Of a stretch of DNA of 36,836 nucleotides, positions 5,396-21,480 are shown in pieces. How positions within the stretch are numbered: the first letter of the stretch is position 1; each line of letters starts with the position of its first letter. The notes under the pieces were generated by a model. The model was not told the origin of the DNA. It saw only the letters and a program-made list of their open reading frames with translations, and ran no database searches. The DNA is taken from assembly GCA_009694435.1 (NCBI GenBank), contig SHUY01000011.1:1-36836 (forward strand), written 5' to 3'. Both the position numbers and the translations under genes were made by a program. Source of the stretch: Acidimicrobiia bacterium. GTDB taxonomy: Bacteria > Actinomycetota > Acidimicrobiia > IMCC26256 > PALSA-555.

Positions 5396-5493
5396 CGTCT
5401 ATCTCCTTGTTGGTTGGATTTGCTTAGGCCATAATCGACCGAGGCGGCGGCGGAACTAATCGTTGAGGGGCAGTCGAGCACACCCCAAAATAA

Positions 5494-5913
5494 TTAATGC
5501 GGCCGACCACTCGGTCCGTAGAGGAGTTTTGCTGCTTCGGGGGGATCAGGGAGGACAACGGTAAATTCATTTCCTTCGGGATCGGCCATTCGGTAATGCG
5601 ACTCTCCGGGGCGGGCGTGTATGGCTTCAACGAAACGGCCGCCTAACTCTTCAATACGCTGGCGGGCTATCTCCATATCTTCAACTTCGATGTCGGCCCG
5701 AGTGCGAAACCCAGTCGGAACGGAGCCGGCGGGGGCGGGTTCGAAGGCCATGCAGGCACCACCGCTATCGGGACCAAGGCGTATCCAGTCGTCCTCGTTC
5801 TCAATAATTTCTACTCCGAGCACTGCTTTCCAGAAGTTGGCCAATACCGCGGGGCTGTTGGCATCAATAACAACGGTGCGGAGCCAACCGACGGGGACAA
5901 GTTTTTCGTTCAT
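5494..5913 (-). CDS. Glyoxalase/bleomycin-resistance (VOC) family protein
   Basis: 139 aa; ANFWKAVLGVEI, DIEVEDMEIARQRIEELGGRFVEA, YRMADPEGNEFTVV are VOC signatures. Confidence 0.8.
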   Translation of the reverse strand: MNEKLVPVGWLRTVVIDANSPAVLANFWKAVLGVEIIENEDDWIRLGPDSGGACMAFEPAPAGSVPTGFRTRADIEVEDMEIARQRIEELGGRFVEAIHARPGESHYRMADPEGNEFTVVLPDPPEAAKLLYGPSGRPH

Positions 5914-5950
5914 GGTTCTCCTTCACGACAACGCCGGCCTTTTGCCGATA

Positions 5951-5992
5951 GTGGCTTTGGCCACACGATAGCCTGACCAAATCACTATTTGG
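5951..5992. promoter_or_regulatory. Two adjacent inverted repeats in a divergent intergenic region (candidate operator)
   Basis: GTGGC-tttg-GCCAC (5951-5964) and CCAAAT-cact-ATTTGG (5977-5992), both perfect with 4-nt spacers. Confidence 0.35.
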
Positions 5993-6085
5993 AAATTACC
6001 ACCCGAACTTCGCCCGGCGGTCACGCAAGTTCTTAGTGCTCGCTCGCACCCGCCGCGCGATCAGTCGCTTTTCTCGTCCAATACT

Positions 6086-7045
6086 TTGTTTGGTGAGCCG
6101 GGCATCTATCCCGATGGCTCGCCGATGCATCCGGCGACCGGCGACCCAGTTGATGAAGTCGGCGCCCGTTCGGCCTTGGAGCGATTGGACGACGACGGAG
6201 TGCTGATCCGATTTAACGATGCCCAACTGATCGCTCGATGTTTAGAGCCGGGGCCGAGGGCGGCGTTGGCGGCACTCTCGGCGACGATAGCGGCGCCGCT
6301 GCTTGATGCGTTGGTTGTCGACGAAACTCCCGTCGCTACGCTCAGCGTTGGTGTGCCAATCTCGCCCGGACGGATCGTCGGTCCAGTGCTCGACGGTGAG
6401 TCAAAGAATCGGGTGGTAAACGAGCGTTACCGATCTGAAGACCCCTTGCTCGTAGCGCCGTCGCTGGCCCATGATTTACTGTGGAACACGGTCGGGGCGG
6501 GGCAATTTGAAGAAGCGACTCTGCATTTGATCTGCGCTCTGGTGTACTTGCAGTTAGTGATGCGCGAGCCCGCTCTCGCGCATCACGATACTGAGCTCGC
6601 GCGCCGACAAAATTCATTAGCGATTAGCGTTTTAAATTCACGAGCGGTTGGCGAAAGTGAACTGCGAGTGATCGCCCCCGACGGATCCGGCACGATTCCG
6701 GGGGGCGCCCCCGCCATGGCAACGCCCGATTATTGGTCAATTCCCTTCGTGGGTGGTCCGCCGGCAACCAGCCCTGCTCCACCATTGTTAAGTGTGGTTC
6801 TAAATAGGGCGGTAGGAGGGAATGAACCCTTGGGTGTTATTGACCAATACGACAACGCCCTGGGCGAGGCAATTTCTTCTCACGGCTTGCGCGGCGCGCT
6901 GAGCGAATACCACCAACTGCGAGTTGCGCTGACGCTCGGGCTCATTGACGAACATGATCTCGCTCTACATTCTGGTACACCGCTAAAAGATGTCGGCGCC
7001 GCGTTTGGTGTCAGCGATATTTTGGAGTTATTCGTCAGCCCATGA
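6086..7045 (+). CDS. Hypothetical protein
   Basis: 319 aa ORF (TTG start uncertain) whose stop overlaps the ATG of the downstream MFS gene (ATGA). Confidence 0.6.
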   Translation: MFGEPGIYPDGSPMHPATGDPVDEVGARSALERLDDDGVLIRFNDAQLIARCLEPGPRAALAALSATIAAPLLDALVVDETPVATLSVGVPISPGRIVGPVLDGESKNRVVNERYRSEDPLLVAPSLAHDLLWNTVGAGQFEEATLHLICALVYLQLVMREPALAHHDTELARRQNSLAISVLNSRAVGESELRVIAPDGSGTIPGGAPAMATPDYWSIPFVGGPPATSPAPPLLSVVLNRAVGGNEPLGVIDQYDNALGEAISSHGLRGALSEYHQLRVALTLGLIDEHDLALHSGTPLKDVGAAFGVSDILELFVSP

Positions 7046-8403
7046 GTCCGTTTCGGCTGTGGCTCACTCTGGGTGCCCTTAGTATCCCAATCATTTTGGT
7101 GTCAATCGACCTAAACGGAATTGTTGTTCTACTGCCACAAATCGGTTCTGATCTCGGTGCTTCGGCCGACGAAGTTGGATCGATCGTAACGGTAGCGAGC
7201 ATCACGTCTTGTGCGCCTTTGCTGTTGGTGGGTCGGGTGGCAACTCGTATCGGCTCTCGTCGGCTACTGCTGTTCGGAATTGCTTTACTCTGGATAGCCG
7301 CGGTCATCTGCACATTTACTGAATCGTTTAGTTTGATGATGTTCGGGCGCGCGTTGGAGGGACTGGGGGCGGCTTGTTGCTTTACAACATCGCTTGCGGT
7401 TATCGATTACTTATTCGATAGCAAGCGTCGTCCGGTGGCGATTGGTATCTGGGGTGGCCTTGGTGGTTTGGGGGGAGCAGTGGCGCCGTTGGTGGCGAGT
7501 CTGCTCAACCAGGCGTTCTCTTGGCGAGCATTTTTTGGTATCAATCTTATTTTGTTGGCGGTCGCCTTGGTGATGTTGTTGATTCTCGTGCCCAAGATCC
7601 CGGCCGACGCGGCGCGATCGATTCCTGTGGTGATTATGGGCTTGTTGACGCTGGGTATTGCTGGCACCATTGGAGGAGTGCAGCACTCGGCGTTTGGCGG
7701 TTGGCTCAGTGCCGGGACGATTATTCCAATTATCGGCGGAGCGATATGTCTCGCGCTGGTATGGCGCTTGCGCACCCCCGAAACACCGCTTGTTCCCACA
7801 ACTATTACGAGAAAATTGTCATTTCGTTTTGGTACCGCGGAAGCAACTCTTTCGAACTGGGGCTCGGGAGTGGTGATGGTATTGGTGCCGATTGCTCTAG
7901 AGACAATTCGAGGCGTAAGCGTGCTGGAGGCGGGGATTATTTTCATGGCCTTTTCGATTCCTTTCGCACTGGGTAGCGTGATATCGGGCTCGGCTATCGA
8001 TACCTACGGGGGTCAAAAAACTCTCGGGGCAAGTTCAGCGGTGTTCGCGATTGGGATATTGGTGCTAGTGGTAGTGGGCATCACCGGCCCTATGGCGGGC
8101 ATTATTGTTGGTCTTGCCATTTGCGGGTTAGGTAATGGCGTCATTTACAGTGGAGCAACTTCGGTGGCCTTTTCAGATATCGTTTCGAGCGATGCGGCGG
8201 AAGCCTCGGCTACCTTGAGCATGTTGCGAGTCAGTGGTTTTGCTATGGCCGTGGCCTTGTCGACTTCGATCGAGGGAAGTTTAGATAGCGGATCTTCTAG
8301 TAGTGAGCGGGGGATTAGAACGGTGCTGATAATCGCCGCAGTAATTACCGCCGCGGGAATACCGGCGGCTTTTCGTCGGGGCAAACTGACCCGAGTTGAT
8401 TGA
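7042..8403 (+). CDS. MFS transporter
   Basis: 453 aa, ~12-14 TM; DLNGIVVLLPQIGSDLG, GRVATRIGSRRLLLFG, FGRALEGLGAACCFTTSLAVI typical of MFS. Confidence 0.85.
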   Translation: MSPFRLWLTLGALSIPIILVSIDLNGIVVLLPQIGSDLGASADEVGSIVTVASITSCAPLLLVGRVATRIGSRRLLLFGIALLWIAAVICTFTESFSLMMFGRALEGLGAACCFTTSLAVIDYLFDSKRRPVAIGIWGGLGGLGGAVAPLVASLLNQAFSWRAFFGINLILLAVALVMLLILVPKIPADAARSIPVVIMGLLTLGIAGTIGGVQHSAFGGWLSAGTIIPIIGGAICLALVWRLRTPETPLVPTTITRKLSFRFGTAEATLSNWGSGVVMVLVPIALETIRGVSVLEAGIIFMAFSIPFALGSVISGSAIDTYGGQKTLGASSAVFAIGILVLVVVGITGPMAGIIVGLAICGLGNGVIYSGATSVAFSDIVSSDAAEASATLSMLRVSGFAMAVALSTSIEGSLDSGSSSSERGIRTVLIIAAVITAAGIPAAFRRGKLTRVD

Positions 8404-8416
8404 GTAAGTTAGCGCT

Positions 8417-9367
8417 GTGCTTTTACCCGACACCGAAAACGCCCCCGCGGCTCTGGCCGTCGTAAAAGCAGCATTTGCTCCGACCGGCGGCTTGGACGAT
8501 ATGCAGCAACGGCTCATCGACGATATGGCGCAAATTATGTATGGGCTCGATTACGGGGCCACCGCTGACCTCACCGACGAAGTGCTTGAAACTCTTCCCT
8601 ACGAGACTCGGCTCGAGGCTCTCCATTTGATGGTGGTGATTGAATTGATGGAGCATCCACTTCGGCCTGAAGTCGCGCAGTCGGTACTGGAATTTGCTGA
8701 AAAACTCAACCTCCCCATTCAATTGTTAGAGGATGCTCGCCACTTGGCGGATGATCAAATTGCGTTCGCCTACCTAGATTTTCAACGCCACGGTTGGTAC
8801 GCGCACGAAACCTTGCGCGAGTCGACTCACGGCAAGTGGCTTGAGTTATTGCGTTCGAAGATTGCCTACATAGGGATTATTCCGGATGAGGAAATTGCCC
8901 AGCGCTGGGAAGCTCTGCTCGTTTGTCCCGACGGGAGTTGGGGGCGGGCCGTTGCCCAGTTTTATCTTGACCACAAGTTCCCATTTCCCGGTGAAAAACA
9001 CGGAATCTTTGAGGTTGGGGCTCGGCACGACTGGATGCATGTCTTGTGTGGGTACGGAACCGAACCCGCCGGGGAACTCAATGTATTCGCGTTCATTGCT
9101 GCGTCGATGAACGACTCGCGCGGGCTGGTGCTTTTGGCGGTCACGCTGGGGTTATTTCAGAACGGAACTATCAAACATGTAGGCATGAAGCGCATAGAGA
9201 ATGCCAGCACCGACACATTAAGTATTCCCGGCGTGCTCGAGCAGTGGGCCGATTCCTTTCGTCGCGGAGAACAGTGTCGGGTTGATGTAATGGGGACGGT
9301 CGATCTTTTTGCCTATAAAGACATGGCCCTCGATGAAGCCCGAGATTTTTTTGGGGTTGTGCCTTAA
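8417..9367 (+). CDS. COQ4-like protein with N-terminal TerB-like helical domain (copy 1)
   Basis: C-terminal half has HDWMHVLCGYGTEPAGEL = HDxxHx11E, plus GSWG and PGEKHG; start GTG 8417. Confidence 0.7.
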   Translation: MLLPDTENAPAALAVVKAAFAPTGGLDDMQQRLIDDMAQIMYGLDYGATADLTDEVLETLPYETRLEALHLMVVIELMEHPLRPEVAQSVLEFAEKLNLPIQLLEDARHLADDQIAFAYLDFQRHGWYAHETLRESTHGKWLELLRSKIAYIGIIPDEEIAQRWEALLVCPDGSWGRAVAQFYLDHKFPFPGEKHGIFEVGARHDWMHVLCGYGTEPAGELNVFAFIAASMNDSRGLVLLAVTLGLFQNGTIKHVGMKRIENASTDTLSIPGVLEQWADSFRRGEQCRVDVMGTVDLFAYKDMALDEARDFFGVVP

Positions 9368-9445
9368 CTCGCTTGACCCGCGGAGAGCCAAATAAGCGAG
9401 TGCCGGCGTAAACCAGCAGTTGAGTTAGAGGCCTAGAGTGCATAA

Positions 9446-11158
9446 GTGGCACAAAACCTAGACCGGTCATTTACTCATAACGATTCCGAAACGGTCACGC
9501 TTCCCCGTGGGCAGATAGTTCACCAGCGCCACGCTCAACAGTCCGAAGTTTTGGCTCGCCGCTTCTACCAAGTCCGCCCAGGGGTTTGGACGCTGGTGGG
9601 CAACGGTCTTTCTAACCAGACTTTCGTAGAAGGCCCCGAGGGGATCATCGCCATTGACACGGGTGAGTCGACCGAAGAAATGCGCGAGGCTATTAGTGAA
9701 CTTCGCCAACACACCGATCGACCCATAGTGGCGGTTTTGTATACCCACTTTCACTACGTCGGGGGCACCGAAGCGGTTTATGAAGACGCCAACTCACGCT
9801 CAATGCCGATTTACGGCCACGAGAAAGTCGCTTACAACCGAAACCGAGCCACGTCAGAAATTTCCACTACTTACGTTCGGGGCCTGATTGAACAATTTGC
9901 GATCTTTCTGCCCGACTCCGGCCCCGACGGCAACGTCAATGTGGGGCTAGGTCATTTTTATCGCAACCCCGACCACGCGCCGTTCACCTCGGTGTTCATT
10001 CCCCCTAACGAAACCTTCGGCTCGCGCGCTGCACTTGTAGTGGCGGGTTTACCAATCGAGGTTACCGAAGCCCCTTCCGACGCTGACGATTCAGTTACTT
10101 ATTGGTTCCCGACTTTGGGAGTGGCCGTACACAACTTGGTGTGGCCAGTTCTGTTCAACATATTTGCCATTCGAGGCGAGGAGTATCGCGATCCCCGGGT
10201 TTTATTGACTGGCCTTGACCACTTGTTGGCCCTCAAGCCCGAGCACTTGGTGGCTACCCACGGCCCGCCTATGTCGGGGGCAGACGAAATACAACAACGA
10301 GTGGTTAAGTATCGCGACTCAATCCAATTCTTGTGGGACCAGTCAGTAAGGCATATAAATAAAGGTGTTCTGGGCGCCGATCTGGGGGATGTCATTTCGC
10401 TGCCGGCCCAAACCCAAGACGATTTCATTACTTCCGAGGGTTACGGAGTAGCCGAGCACCACGTCCGCCAAATTCGCAGCGGTTTATTCGGTTGGTTTGA
10501 CGGCAACGAGGCCGAGTTGTTCCCGCTGCCAAGTAACGAGCGCGCCCGCCGAATGATCACTGGCTTTGGTGGCCAAGACGAGGTGCGCGCCCAGACCAAA
10601 CAAGCACTGGCCGATGACGATCTTCGTTGGGCTACCGAACTTGCAACCTGGCTCGTGCGTTCTGAAGAAGGCGATAGTGACGACCGCAAACTATTGGCTA
10701 GTTGTTTGCGGACCATCGCTCAACGCACCTCGGCGGCCAACATTCGTAGTTGGTGTCTAACTCGGGCGCTCAGTTTGGAAGAAAAAATAAATACTACGAG
10801 CCTTTATCAAAACAATTTCAATCGCATTCAAGTGATTTTATCTCCGCCTGAGAGTTCGGTGAATATGTTGCGGGTTTTGCTCGTCCCCGATCTTGCTAAC
10901 GGAATTGATTTTCATATTGCCTTTAAGTTCACTGACCAACCCATTACCGGTTTACACGTGCGCAACTCAGTTGCTTGTCCCACTGGTGGTGCCAACGCCG
11001 ACGCAACGGTCGAATGTTCAATTGAAACTTGGGCCGATGTTTTGGCCGGCGACACTAAGTTGGCGGCGGCCGTTGCTGACGGGTCAGTAGTAATAACGGG
11101 TGACGCCCAACAAGTGCTCGCGACGCTGGCGGTATTTGAGGTTGAAGGGTTTCAGTAG
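9446..11158 (+). CDS. MBL-fold alkylsulfatase-like protein (SdsA/BDS1 family architecture) with dimerisation and SCP2-like domains
   Basis: GVWTLVGNGLSNQTFVEGPEGIIAIDTGES, YTHFHYVGGTEAVYED, dimerisation-type region (FGWFDGNEAELFPLPSNERARRMITGFGG) and C-terminal SCP2-like segment; GTG start. Confidence 0.75.
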   Translation: MAQNLDRSFTHNDSETVTLPRGQIVHQRHAQQSEVLARRFYQVRPGVWTLVGNGLSNQTFVEGPEGIIAIDTGESTEEMREAISELRQHTDRPIVAVLYTHFHYVGGTEAVYEDANSRSMPIYGHEKVAYNRNRATSEISTTYVRGLIEQFAIFLPDSGPDGNVNVGLGHFYRNPDHAPFTSVFIPPNETFGSRAALVVAGLPIEVTEAPSDADDSVTYWFPTLGVAVHNLVWPVLFNIFAIRGEEYRDPRVLLTGLDHLLALKPEHLVATHGPPMSGADEIQQRVVKYRDSIQFLWDQSVRHINKGVLGADLGDVISLPAQTQDDFITSEGYGVAEHHVRQIRSGLFGWFDGNEAELFPLPSNERARRMITGFGGQDEVRAQTKQALADDDLRWATELATWLVRSEEGDSDDRKLLASCLRTIAQRTSAANIRSWCLTRALSLEEKINTTSLYQNNFNRIQVILSPPESSVNMLRVLLVPDLANGIDFHIAFKFTDQPITGLHVRNSVACPTGGANADATVECSIETWADVLAGDTKLAAAVADGSVVITGDAQQVLATLAVFEVEGFQ

Positions 11159-19066: not shown

Positions 19067-19801
19067 ATGACATTGAAACGACGTTCGTTCGCCGGACTGG
19101 CCATCGTGGCCAGTTTCTCTTTACTACTGGCCGCGTGCAGTTGGGGAAGTAGCGATTCAGCAAGAACTTCCACTACTGCGGATGCGGAAGGATCTACTGT
19201 TACCACTAGAGCCAGTAACCGACCTAACCGAAACCGACCTAACCGAAACCGACCTAACCGAAACCGACCTAACCGAAACCGGCCTGACCGAACCAGACCT
19301 GACCAAACCAGACCTGACCAAACCAGGCCTGACCGACTATTGGGAACCAGCTTTTCCGGAGTCGCTTGTCCCGAAGCGAGTGCGACTCGAACGGGCAGGA
19401 AGGCGTTGGCCAATAAAGGAACTCAGACTAGATACACCACTGGCGACGATTACCTAACCGTTATCAGCGATTGCACCGCCGCTCTCCAAGAAGCCGGTTG
19501 GACAGTCGTCGAGGGCGATGGTGGCGACGGCGGCGATTACGGTGGAGGCGGAATCGGGGGTACTAAAGGTGCCGCCAATGTTCAGGTCGAAGCTGGAGAT
19601 AACGGCTCGACCACTTACGTTTATGTTTGCTATTGGCCTGGACCGCAGTCGGACGACAACTGCGGCGACAAGAAGAATAACGACAACGGCGACAACGGCG
19701 ACAACGGCGACAACGGCGACAACGGCGACAACGGCGACAACGGCGACAACGGCGACAACGGCGACAACGGCGACAACGGCAACGAAGAATCGGTGATGTG
19801 A
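19067..19801 (+). CDS. Repeat-containing lipoprotein (paralogue of 19831-20367)
   Basis: Lipobox LLLAACSW; RPNRN/RPDQT pentapeptide repeats and C-terminal (DNG)11; core domain (GVACPEA...ISDCTAALQEAGWTVV...VCYWPGPQSDDNCGD) matches downstream neighbour. Confidence 0.8.
   Translation: MTLKRRSFAGLAIVASFSLLLAACSWGSSDSARTSTTADAEGSTVTTRASNRPNRNRPNRNRPNRNRPNRNRPDRTRPDQTRPDQTRPDRLLGTSFSGVACPEASATRTGRKALANKGTQTRYTTGDDYLTVISDCTAALQEAGWTVVEGDGGDGGDYGGGGIGGTKGAANVQVEAGDNGSTTYVYVCYWPGPQSDDNCGDKKNNDNGDNGDNGDNGDNGDNGDNGDNGDNGDNGDNGNEESVM
19220..19339 (+). repeat. 8 x 15-bp tandem repeat (cgacctaaccgaaac and variants)
   Basis: Four perfect units encoding RPNRN, then RPDRT, RPDQT, RPDQT, RPDRL. Confidence 0.95.
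19682..19780 (+). repeat. 11 x 9-bp perfect tandem repeat (gacaacggc), encodes (Asp-Asn-Gly)11
   Basis: 99 nt of uninterrupted GACAACGGC counted directly. Confidence 0.97.
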
Positions 19802-19830
19802 GTGTCGACCACGACAACTAAGAAGAGAAA

Positions 19831-20367
19831 ATGACATTGAAACGGCGTTCGTTCGCATGGTTGGCCATCGCGGCCAGTTCAGCGTTGTTGTTGGCTGCGT
19901 GTGGTGGAGGAAGCAGCGATTCATCAAGCACTGCCACTACTGCGGCTGCGGGGGGATCTACTGCTACCACTAAAGCCAGTTCGTCGGGAACCAGCCTTTC
20001 CGGAGTCGCTTGTCCCGAAGCGGGCTCGACTAGCACCGGCACGGTGGCGTTGGCCAATAACGGAACTCAAACTAACTACACCACTGGCGACGGTTACCAA
20101 ACCGTTATCAGCGATTGCACCACTGCTCTCCAAGAAGCCGGTTGGACAGTCGTTGGCCGCGGTGGCGGTGGCTGGGGTAACTACGGCGGAGGCGGGCTAG
20201 CGGGTACTAAAGGTGCTGCCAATATTCAGGTCGAAGCTGGAAATAATGGCTCAATTACTTACGTCGATGTTTGTTACTGGCCGGGAGCACAGTCGAACGA
20301 CAACTGCGGCGATAACAACCAAGACGGAAATAACGACAACAACAATAACGACAACGAAAATAACTAG
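19831..20367 (+). CDS. Lipoprotein, tandem paralogue lacking the expanded repeats
   Basis: MTLKRRSFAWLAIAASSALLLAACGGGSSDSS lipobox; same core domain as 19067-19801. Confidence 0.8.
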   Translation: MTLKRRSFAWLAIAASSALLLAACGGGSSDSSSTATTAAAGGSTATTKASSSGTSLSGVACPEAGSTSTGTVALANNGTQTNYTTGDGYQTVISDCTTALQEAGWTVVGRGGGGWGNYGGGGLAGTKGAANIQVEAGNNGSITYVDVCYWPGAQSNDNCGDNNQDGNNDNNNNDNENN

Positions 20368-20442: not shown

Positions 20443-21480
20443 GTGCTCATTCTCCCGCCCCCCGAATTGGGGCCAGTAGTCATCGGTTCGATAAAAGGCT
20501 CAACGGGCGAAGCGGGCTTAAGCGAAATCCAACACGCCATGGTCTCGACGGTGGCTCGCAATTTGTTTAGCCAAGACGATATTGACAATGTTGCGGTTTG
20601 TTCGCCCGATAAAGCGGCGGCGGCGATTTCTGACCCCCAAATTGCTCGCCAAGTGGTGCAGGGCATGATTGCTTTGGCAATGTTGGAACCTCGGCGCGAC
20701 ACCAACGGTGATTTATTTCTCGGCGCCGACCAGCGCATTTCTGACGCGCAGGTGGAGCGCATTGTTAGTTACGCCGATGCTTTTGGTGTCGATGTACCTC
20801 AAATAAAGACTTTTCAGGCGATCGCTGATGAAGATACTAAGCGTATGTATTTCGATTTTTTTTGGCGCTCGAATTTACGCCAACTAGCGATTTCGGACAT
20901 TAAAGATCAAGGACTGCGTAATTTTGTCAAAGGGATGGCGTCTATGCGCGGCCACGGCACTGACGACAAAGTGGCGGACAAATTTAGGCGGCTAGAAGAT
21001 CTCCCCAACGGAACTTGGGGTAAGCAGTTGGTAAATATGTACCACGAATGGGGTTGGGATTATCCCGGCGAGGAACACGGTGCGCCTGAAGTAACTTCGA
21101 CCCACGATTGGGTGCACGTAATTAGTGGCTATCCCCCTACTGCGGTGGGGGAACTTCAAGTCAATACATTTATGCACACCTGTTCTCCCAATCCCAATAG
21201 TTTTGGATTGATGATGTTGGCGTTGGGGCTTTACGGAGTGGGGGGGATTACTTTGCCGACCGGCTCATTTACTTCCCAGGGAGGTGAGCTTGCCCGTGAA
21301 GATATTGGGGAGTTGTTCTTAGAAGCGGCAATGCGCAGCCGCGGGGCGGGCGTAGATCTCCTCGAAGGGGTCGACCATTGGGGTCAAGCTCATATCCCCG
21401 TCGAGGAGTTACGCCACCAGTACAACATTGCTCCTAAAACTCACGATATTGGTGAGCCTGACCCCGGTGTCGTTGCTTAA
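20443..21480 (+). CDS. COQ4-like protein with N-terminal TerB-like helical domain (copy 2)
   Basis: HDWVHVISGYPPTAVGEL = HDxxHx11E; NGTWG, PGEEHG shared with copy 1; N-terminal MIALAMLEPR...ISDAQVERIVSYADAFGVD TerB-like; GTG start. Confidence 0.7.
   Translation: MLILPPPELGPVVIGSIKGSTGEAGLSEIQHAMVSTVARNLFSQDDIDNVAVCSPDKAAAAISDPQIARQVVQGMIALAMLEPRRDTNGDLFLGADQRISDAQVERIVSYADAFGVDVPQIKTFQAIADEDTKRMYFDFFWRSNLRQLAISDIKDQGLRNFVKGMASMRGHGTDDKVADKFRRLEDLPNGTWGKQLVNMYHEWGWDYPGEEHGAPEVTSTHDWVHVISGYPPTAVGELQVNTFMHTCSPNPNSFGLMMLALGLYGVGGITLPTGSFTSQGGELAREDIGELFLEAAMRSRGAGVDLLEGVDHWGQAHIPVEELRHQYNIAPKTHDIGEPDPGVVA

Follow-up and report, generated by a model that had tools for sequence, protein, structure and literature searches.

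A distant COQ4-like protein with an intact metal-site motif and conserved neighbors in an apparently menaquinone-type actinobacterium

The window analyzed here, a whole stretch of 36,836 nucleotides of DNA, encodes a protein (copy 1, Table 1) whose residues ~165–316 are, judged by profile comparison and predicted structure, homologous to COQ4, which makes it a very distant member of the superfamily. The reading we favor, at a probability of roughly 40%, is that copy 1 is a metal-dependent enzyme, probably a decarboxylase or oxidative decarboxylase whose substrate is a hydrophobic aromatic acid, working in a peripheral pathway that includes export; both the catalysis and the substrate are predicted. 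More broadly, such a relative, encoded beside an exporter in a small conserved block of a menaquinone-type actinobacterium, suggests that the COQ4 fold is reused for other chemistry.

Table 1. Positions of the features discussed, numbered from the first nucleotide of the window.
Feature	Position	Strand	Remarks
Glyoxalase-like VOC protein (Glyoxalase_6), divergent	5494..5913	-	Pfam 2.6e-18
Orphan protein	6086..7045	+	Homology reaches upstream to ~6011; no Pfam or PDB relative
MFS transporter (MFS_1)	7042..8403	+	Closest NCBIfam likeness DHA2/EmrB-type drug efflux, below cut-off
COQ4-like protein copy 1	8417..9367	+	GTG start, 316 aa; helical N-terminal half ~1–150, COQ4-homologous domain ~165–316
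Metal-site motif HDWMHVLCGYGTEPAGE (H204, D205, H208, E220)	9026..9076	+	Within copy 1; in register with Coq4 (hhalign)
COQ4-like protein copy 2, 345 aa, motif HDWVHVISGYPPTAVGE (starts 21103)	20443..21480	+	BLASTP to copy 1

Copy 1 carries the metal motif of the COQ4 superfamily, HDxxH-(x)10–13-E. The preliminary description had called this site intact and exactly spaced (HDxxHx11E), which is borne out by the open reading frame and by the invariance of the four ligands in aligned relatives. All four are unchanged in 28 of 28 relatives retrieved by whole-protein similarity. They are likewise unchanged in 67 of 67 sequences of a second alignment, a set partly retrieved using a pattern containing HD[WF][VI]H, so that only the conservation of the glutamate is independent there. 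A six-frame scan of the window finds HDxxHx11E twice, in copy 1 (9026) and in copy 2 (21103). Each time the 26 larger open reading frames of the window are shuffled, 0.019 strict matches are expected. A chance origin of the motif was discarded given this expectation and the homology of both carriers. The motif residues of copy 1 most likely coordinate a divalent metal ion where a hydrophobic pocket opens.

An activity has been assigned to COQ4 only recently, and in two forms. The human and ancestral proteins are reported to be Zn-dependent C1 decarboxylases in vitro, and mutation of the motif abolishes the activity (PMC7615680). In cells, human COQ4 performs a one-step oxidative decarboxylation, according to a study cited in PMC11495197. 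Cyanobacterial Alr8543 holds Mg ions at the equivalent motif residues and binds oleic acid (PMC9774615). Copy 1 might instead be a non-catalytic lipid- or quinone-binding scaffold for a small membrane-associated enzyme complex, which was the original proposal for yeast Coq4. An organizing role was for a long time ascribed to COQ4 (PMC9774615, PMC11495197), a structural one is also proposed, and the fatty acid in the Alr8543 structure (6e12) fits a binding function, but a pure scaffold has no need of four metal ligands that stay invariant among very divergent members, and the loss of COQ4 activity in vitro upon ligand mutation (PMC7615680) also speaks against it. We regard the scaffold as unlikely.

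The assignment of copy 1 to the COQ4 family, made in the preliminary description, holds at the level of profiles and predicted structure. Single-sequence searches of Pfam, NCBIfam and the PDB with copy 1 give no convincing match; Pfam returns nothing even at E 10, so the PF05019 gathering cut-off is not reached by copy 1 alone, although 21 of the 28 relatives match that model weakly (E ≤ 1, best 1.3e-4). A PF05019 search of this genome gives no match above the cut-off, and plasmid sequences searched with copy 1 give none. An Ndc80/HEC1 match to the single sequence was dismissed as chance-level. The family profile finds the COQ4-like structures 3msq (E 7e-6) and 6e12 (E 0.0045) in the PDB. Compared by hhalign with ten proteins, every one scoring as PF05019, the family alignment is matched over residues 165–316 with a probability of 98.3% and an E-value of 2.5e-14, and copy 1 as a single sequence with an E-value of 8e-12, the metal site being in register. 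The AlphaFold2 model of copy 1 (pLDDT 87.8, pTM 0.87) has as its best Foldseek matches in the PDB two chains of 6e12 (E 2.2e-4 and 1e-3) and 3msq (E 1.8e-3), all at probability 1.00. The aligned structures are 14–18% identical, and their TM-scores to the target of 0.50 need care because the alignment is stretched over both domains, which gives a large rmsd. Overall identity to real COQ4 is ~17%, so the reaction type is not necessarily retained.

The COQ4 part had been described as preceded by a TerB-like helical domain of ~150 aa. The helical half is real, residues 1–150 being helical in the AlphaFold2 model, but its likeness to TerB is not established. A Pfam search of this half returns no domain, TerB included, and hhalign against the single TerB protein found among the relatives gives a probability of 0.1%, so that a TerB identity lacks support from sequence. 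The Foldseek match of the copy 1 model to 2h5n, a TerB-like structure, is sub-significant (E 1.1, probability 0.93). Another structure matched by the family profile, 3nuf, is of the PRD type (E 1.3e-4). The safest name for the N-terminal half is simply an unassigned helical domain.

Copy 2 is homologous to copy 1 over its whole length (BLASTP E 6e-22, 19% identity) and scores 14.2 bits against PF05019 (E 0.027), short of the cut-off of 22.9. In the tree it is a long-branch sister of the copy-1 clade. Adjoining copy 2 on the forward strand (19067–20367) are two neighboring paralogous small genes of lipoprotein-like type; in the first, tracts of NRP and GDN repeats look liable to slippage.

The host assembly is a MAG of 1.77 Mb, 86% complete, and most of the relatives that carry a name are MAGs of Acidimicrobiia. 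MenA is present above the cut-off, COQ7 was not found in the 86% complete assembly, and UbiG and proteobacterial UbiA have matches below their cut-offs only, those of UbiA including two besides MenA. At this completeness gene absences are not firm, and within that limit no standard ubiquinone pathway is visible and the gene content indicates a menaquinone-type host, in agreement with the actinobacterial genome first proposed. A role for copy 1 as the usual COQ4 in making ubiquinone has its COQ4 homology to recommend it, but MenA is present, COQ7 was not found, UbiG and UbiA stay below the cut-off and PF05019 is unmatched in the genome, which together make this extremely improbable. Given the homology and the same quinone genes, copy 1 probably has a different substrate, as had been supposed. 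The earlier statement, which placed COQ4 in ubiquinone biosynthesis, needs widening, since the two solved COQ4-like structures found here and many proteins annotated as "Coq4 family" are cyanobacterial. Cyanobacteria make plastoquinone and are not known to make ubiquinone. In databases, COQ4 relatives outside ubiquinone biosynthesis are in themselves not new; annotated "Coq4 family" proteins occur on cyanobacterial plasmids and on Novosphingobium pNL2.

The COQ4-like family occurs in 37 of 61 related genomes, with 0–8 copies in each. Named homologues come from Acidimicrobiales MAGs, Nocardia, Catenulispora, Streptacidiphilus, Yinghuangia, Salsipaludibacter, Synechococcus and a Myxococcales MAG; some of the MAG names are plainly wrong, such as "Bifidobacterium breve". 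In the tree the copy-1 subfamily is a single group with support of 98/92, and it is found in 9 of 58 genomes of the order, at 477–546 bits and with a sharp gap to the next match at 241. The closest relative of copy 1, at locus L031, is 62% identical, and clade members sharing the conserved neighbors are 38–61% identical to copy 1.

This distribution bears on whether copy 1 modifies the menaquinone or another isoprenoid quinone of its host, as a menaquinone counterpart of COQ4. Prenylated aromatic rings are the substrates of COQ4, and the genome encodes MenA along with the two other UbiA matches, which do not reach the proteobacterial cut-off. However, the patchy occurrence of both subfamily and family, the copy number of 0–8 and the lack of any recognized quinone gene among the conserved neighbors are unlike a core quinone step, and such a role is quite unlikely.

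The neighborhoods were compared with a codon-usage gene caller at 12 loci of the copy-1 type and 69 other loci, some on contigs that end too near to judge. An MFS protein of one cluster lies within two genes of the copy-1-type gene (three if the order is inverted) at 9 of the 12 loci, namely those of the window, L031, L032, L034, L035, L036, L038, L039 and L041; at L033 an MFS-like fragment was seen by eye. The VOC protein (Glyoxalase_6) stands one to three genes away at 9 of 12 loci, and a member of the orphan family lies equally close at 7 of 12. Among the other 69 loci, the VOC and orphan proteins occur at none, and three have an MFS protein from that cluster. L031 has the order VOC, orphan, MFS and COQ4-like gene identical to that of the window, where the orphan gene shares 4 bp with the MFS gene and 13 bp separate the end of the MFS gene from copy 1. 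The MFS transporter reported upstream of copy 1 in the preliminary description is confirmed. VOC proteins and MFS exporters are both generic as neighbors, which counts against the decarboxylase reading.

The orphan family is present in seven of the 61 relatives, six of them among the nine that carry copy-1-type genes (hypergeometric p 1e-5, kinship ignored). Its homology runs ~75 bases upstream of the first ATG, GTG or TTG, at 6086, through a stretch with no such start, so that translation starts at a rarer codon or farther upstream. A model of the orphan protein built from six sequences is of moderate confidence (pLDDT 73.9), and a fold search with it gave no significant match; weak matches to MATCAP (E 0.7) were discarded.

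Downstream the picture differs. Copy 1 does lie between the MFS gene and two sulfatase-type genes, as first described, but the link to the sulfatases is not conserved. These genes share the strand of copy 1, the gap to the first (9446) is 78 bp, and no strong terminator signal stands out above shuffles in 5400–9600, all of which would suit a joint catabolism of sulfated compounds by copy 1 and the alkylsulfatase-like and sulfatase proteins. At L031, which keeps the VOC, orphan and MFS genes, an opposite-strand gene takes the sulfatase position and no sulfatase adjoins; nor do these sulfatases adjoin a copy-1-type gene at any locus besides that of the window. The linkage is therefore local to this genome, the sulfatases were dismissed as functional partners, and the joint catabolism is very unlikely. 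The alkylsulfatase-like gene itself (9446–11158, +) reads THFHYVGG at the metallo-beta-lactamase motif, where THxHxDHxGG is usual, and, by eye, its protein may have lost part of the metal site.

Returning to the decarboxylase, a COQ4-superfamily member fused to or extended by the N-terminal helical domain would have been recruited to peripheral metabolism in menaquinone-type Acidimicrobiia. The kept metal site within a fold for hydrophobic ligands suggests that the compound acted on is an amphipathic carboxylate, aromatic or fatty, and copy 1 would most likely decarboxylate or oxidatively decarboxylate a hydrophobic hydroxy-aromatic or similar carboxylate, with reaction type and substrate both putative. 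The neighboring MFS gene suggests export, presumably of the product or of an intermediate that is toxic; the VOC and orphan proteins may share the compound as their target. A peripheral place in metabolism is suggested by the patchy distribution of the family and by the multiplication of its paralogues.

The literature searched yielded no paper on actinobacterial COQ4-like proteins, and within that scope three things appear new: the two-part actinobacterial family, the way it has expanded and the conserved block. As a wider and still more tentative proposal, lineage-expanded two-domain COQ4-like metalloenzymes of Actinobacteria could act on aromatic compounds or lipids other than quinones, one subfamily serving an export-linked pathway together with the undescribed orphan family (~6011–7045). 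COQ4 was long viewed as an organizer, and a large family that shares its metal site but apparently stands apart from the ubiquinone pathway, with identifiable neighbors, offers an independent route to the function of that site. It also points to uncharacterized genes of abundant uncultured freshwater and soil Actinobacteria.

Several other COQ4-like genes were seen in passing. On Novosphingobium pNL2 (L133:1201–2019) a Coq4 family gene immediately follows an AtuA gene for acyclic terpene utilization. A Myxococcales MAG (L124:457–2139, -) has an open reading frame of 561 aa in which a fatty acid desaturase domain (E 5e-29) is combined with a Coq4 domain of canonical type (E 2e-23), a fusion that hints at lipid chemistry for non-quinone Coq4 proteins; the same MAG encodes two more canonical ones. 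Synechococcus sp. CS-1331 (L076) has three canonical Coq4 genes and one long COQ4-like gene. A different COQ4-like clade (L062, L079, L091, L092, L099 and L109) has its own conserved small neighbor of ~110 aa, and a gene resembling pterin-4a-carbinolamine dehydratase was noted by eye at L083, L091, L092 and L109.

Set beside the COQ4/PF05019 proteins, such as human COQ4 and yeast Coq4, copy 1 has a C-terminal domain that is homologous in its central and C-terminal part, and an identical HDxxHx11E in register. Unlike them, it is longer by the helical N-terminal half, does not match PF05019, resides in an apparently menaquinone-type host and is linked to MFS, VOC and orphan genes. The cyanobacterial Alr8543 (6e12) and 3msq, its best profile and predicted-structure matches, are likewise outside ubiquinone biosynthesis, but they are shorter (~225 aa) and have no N-terminal helical half. 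The long COQ4-like proteins of Nocardia, Catenulispora, Streptacidiphilus, Ilumatobacter-type and Synechococcus genomes fall in separate clades without the VOC and orphan neighbors, yet they share with copy 1 the two-part architecture, the length class and 25–35% identity.
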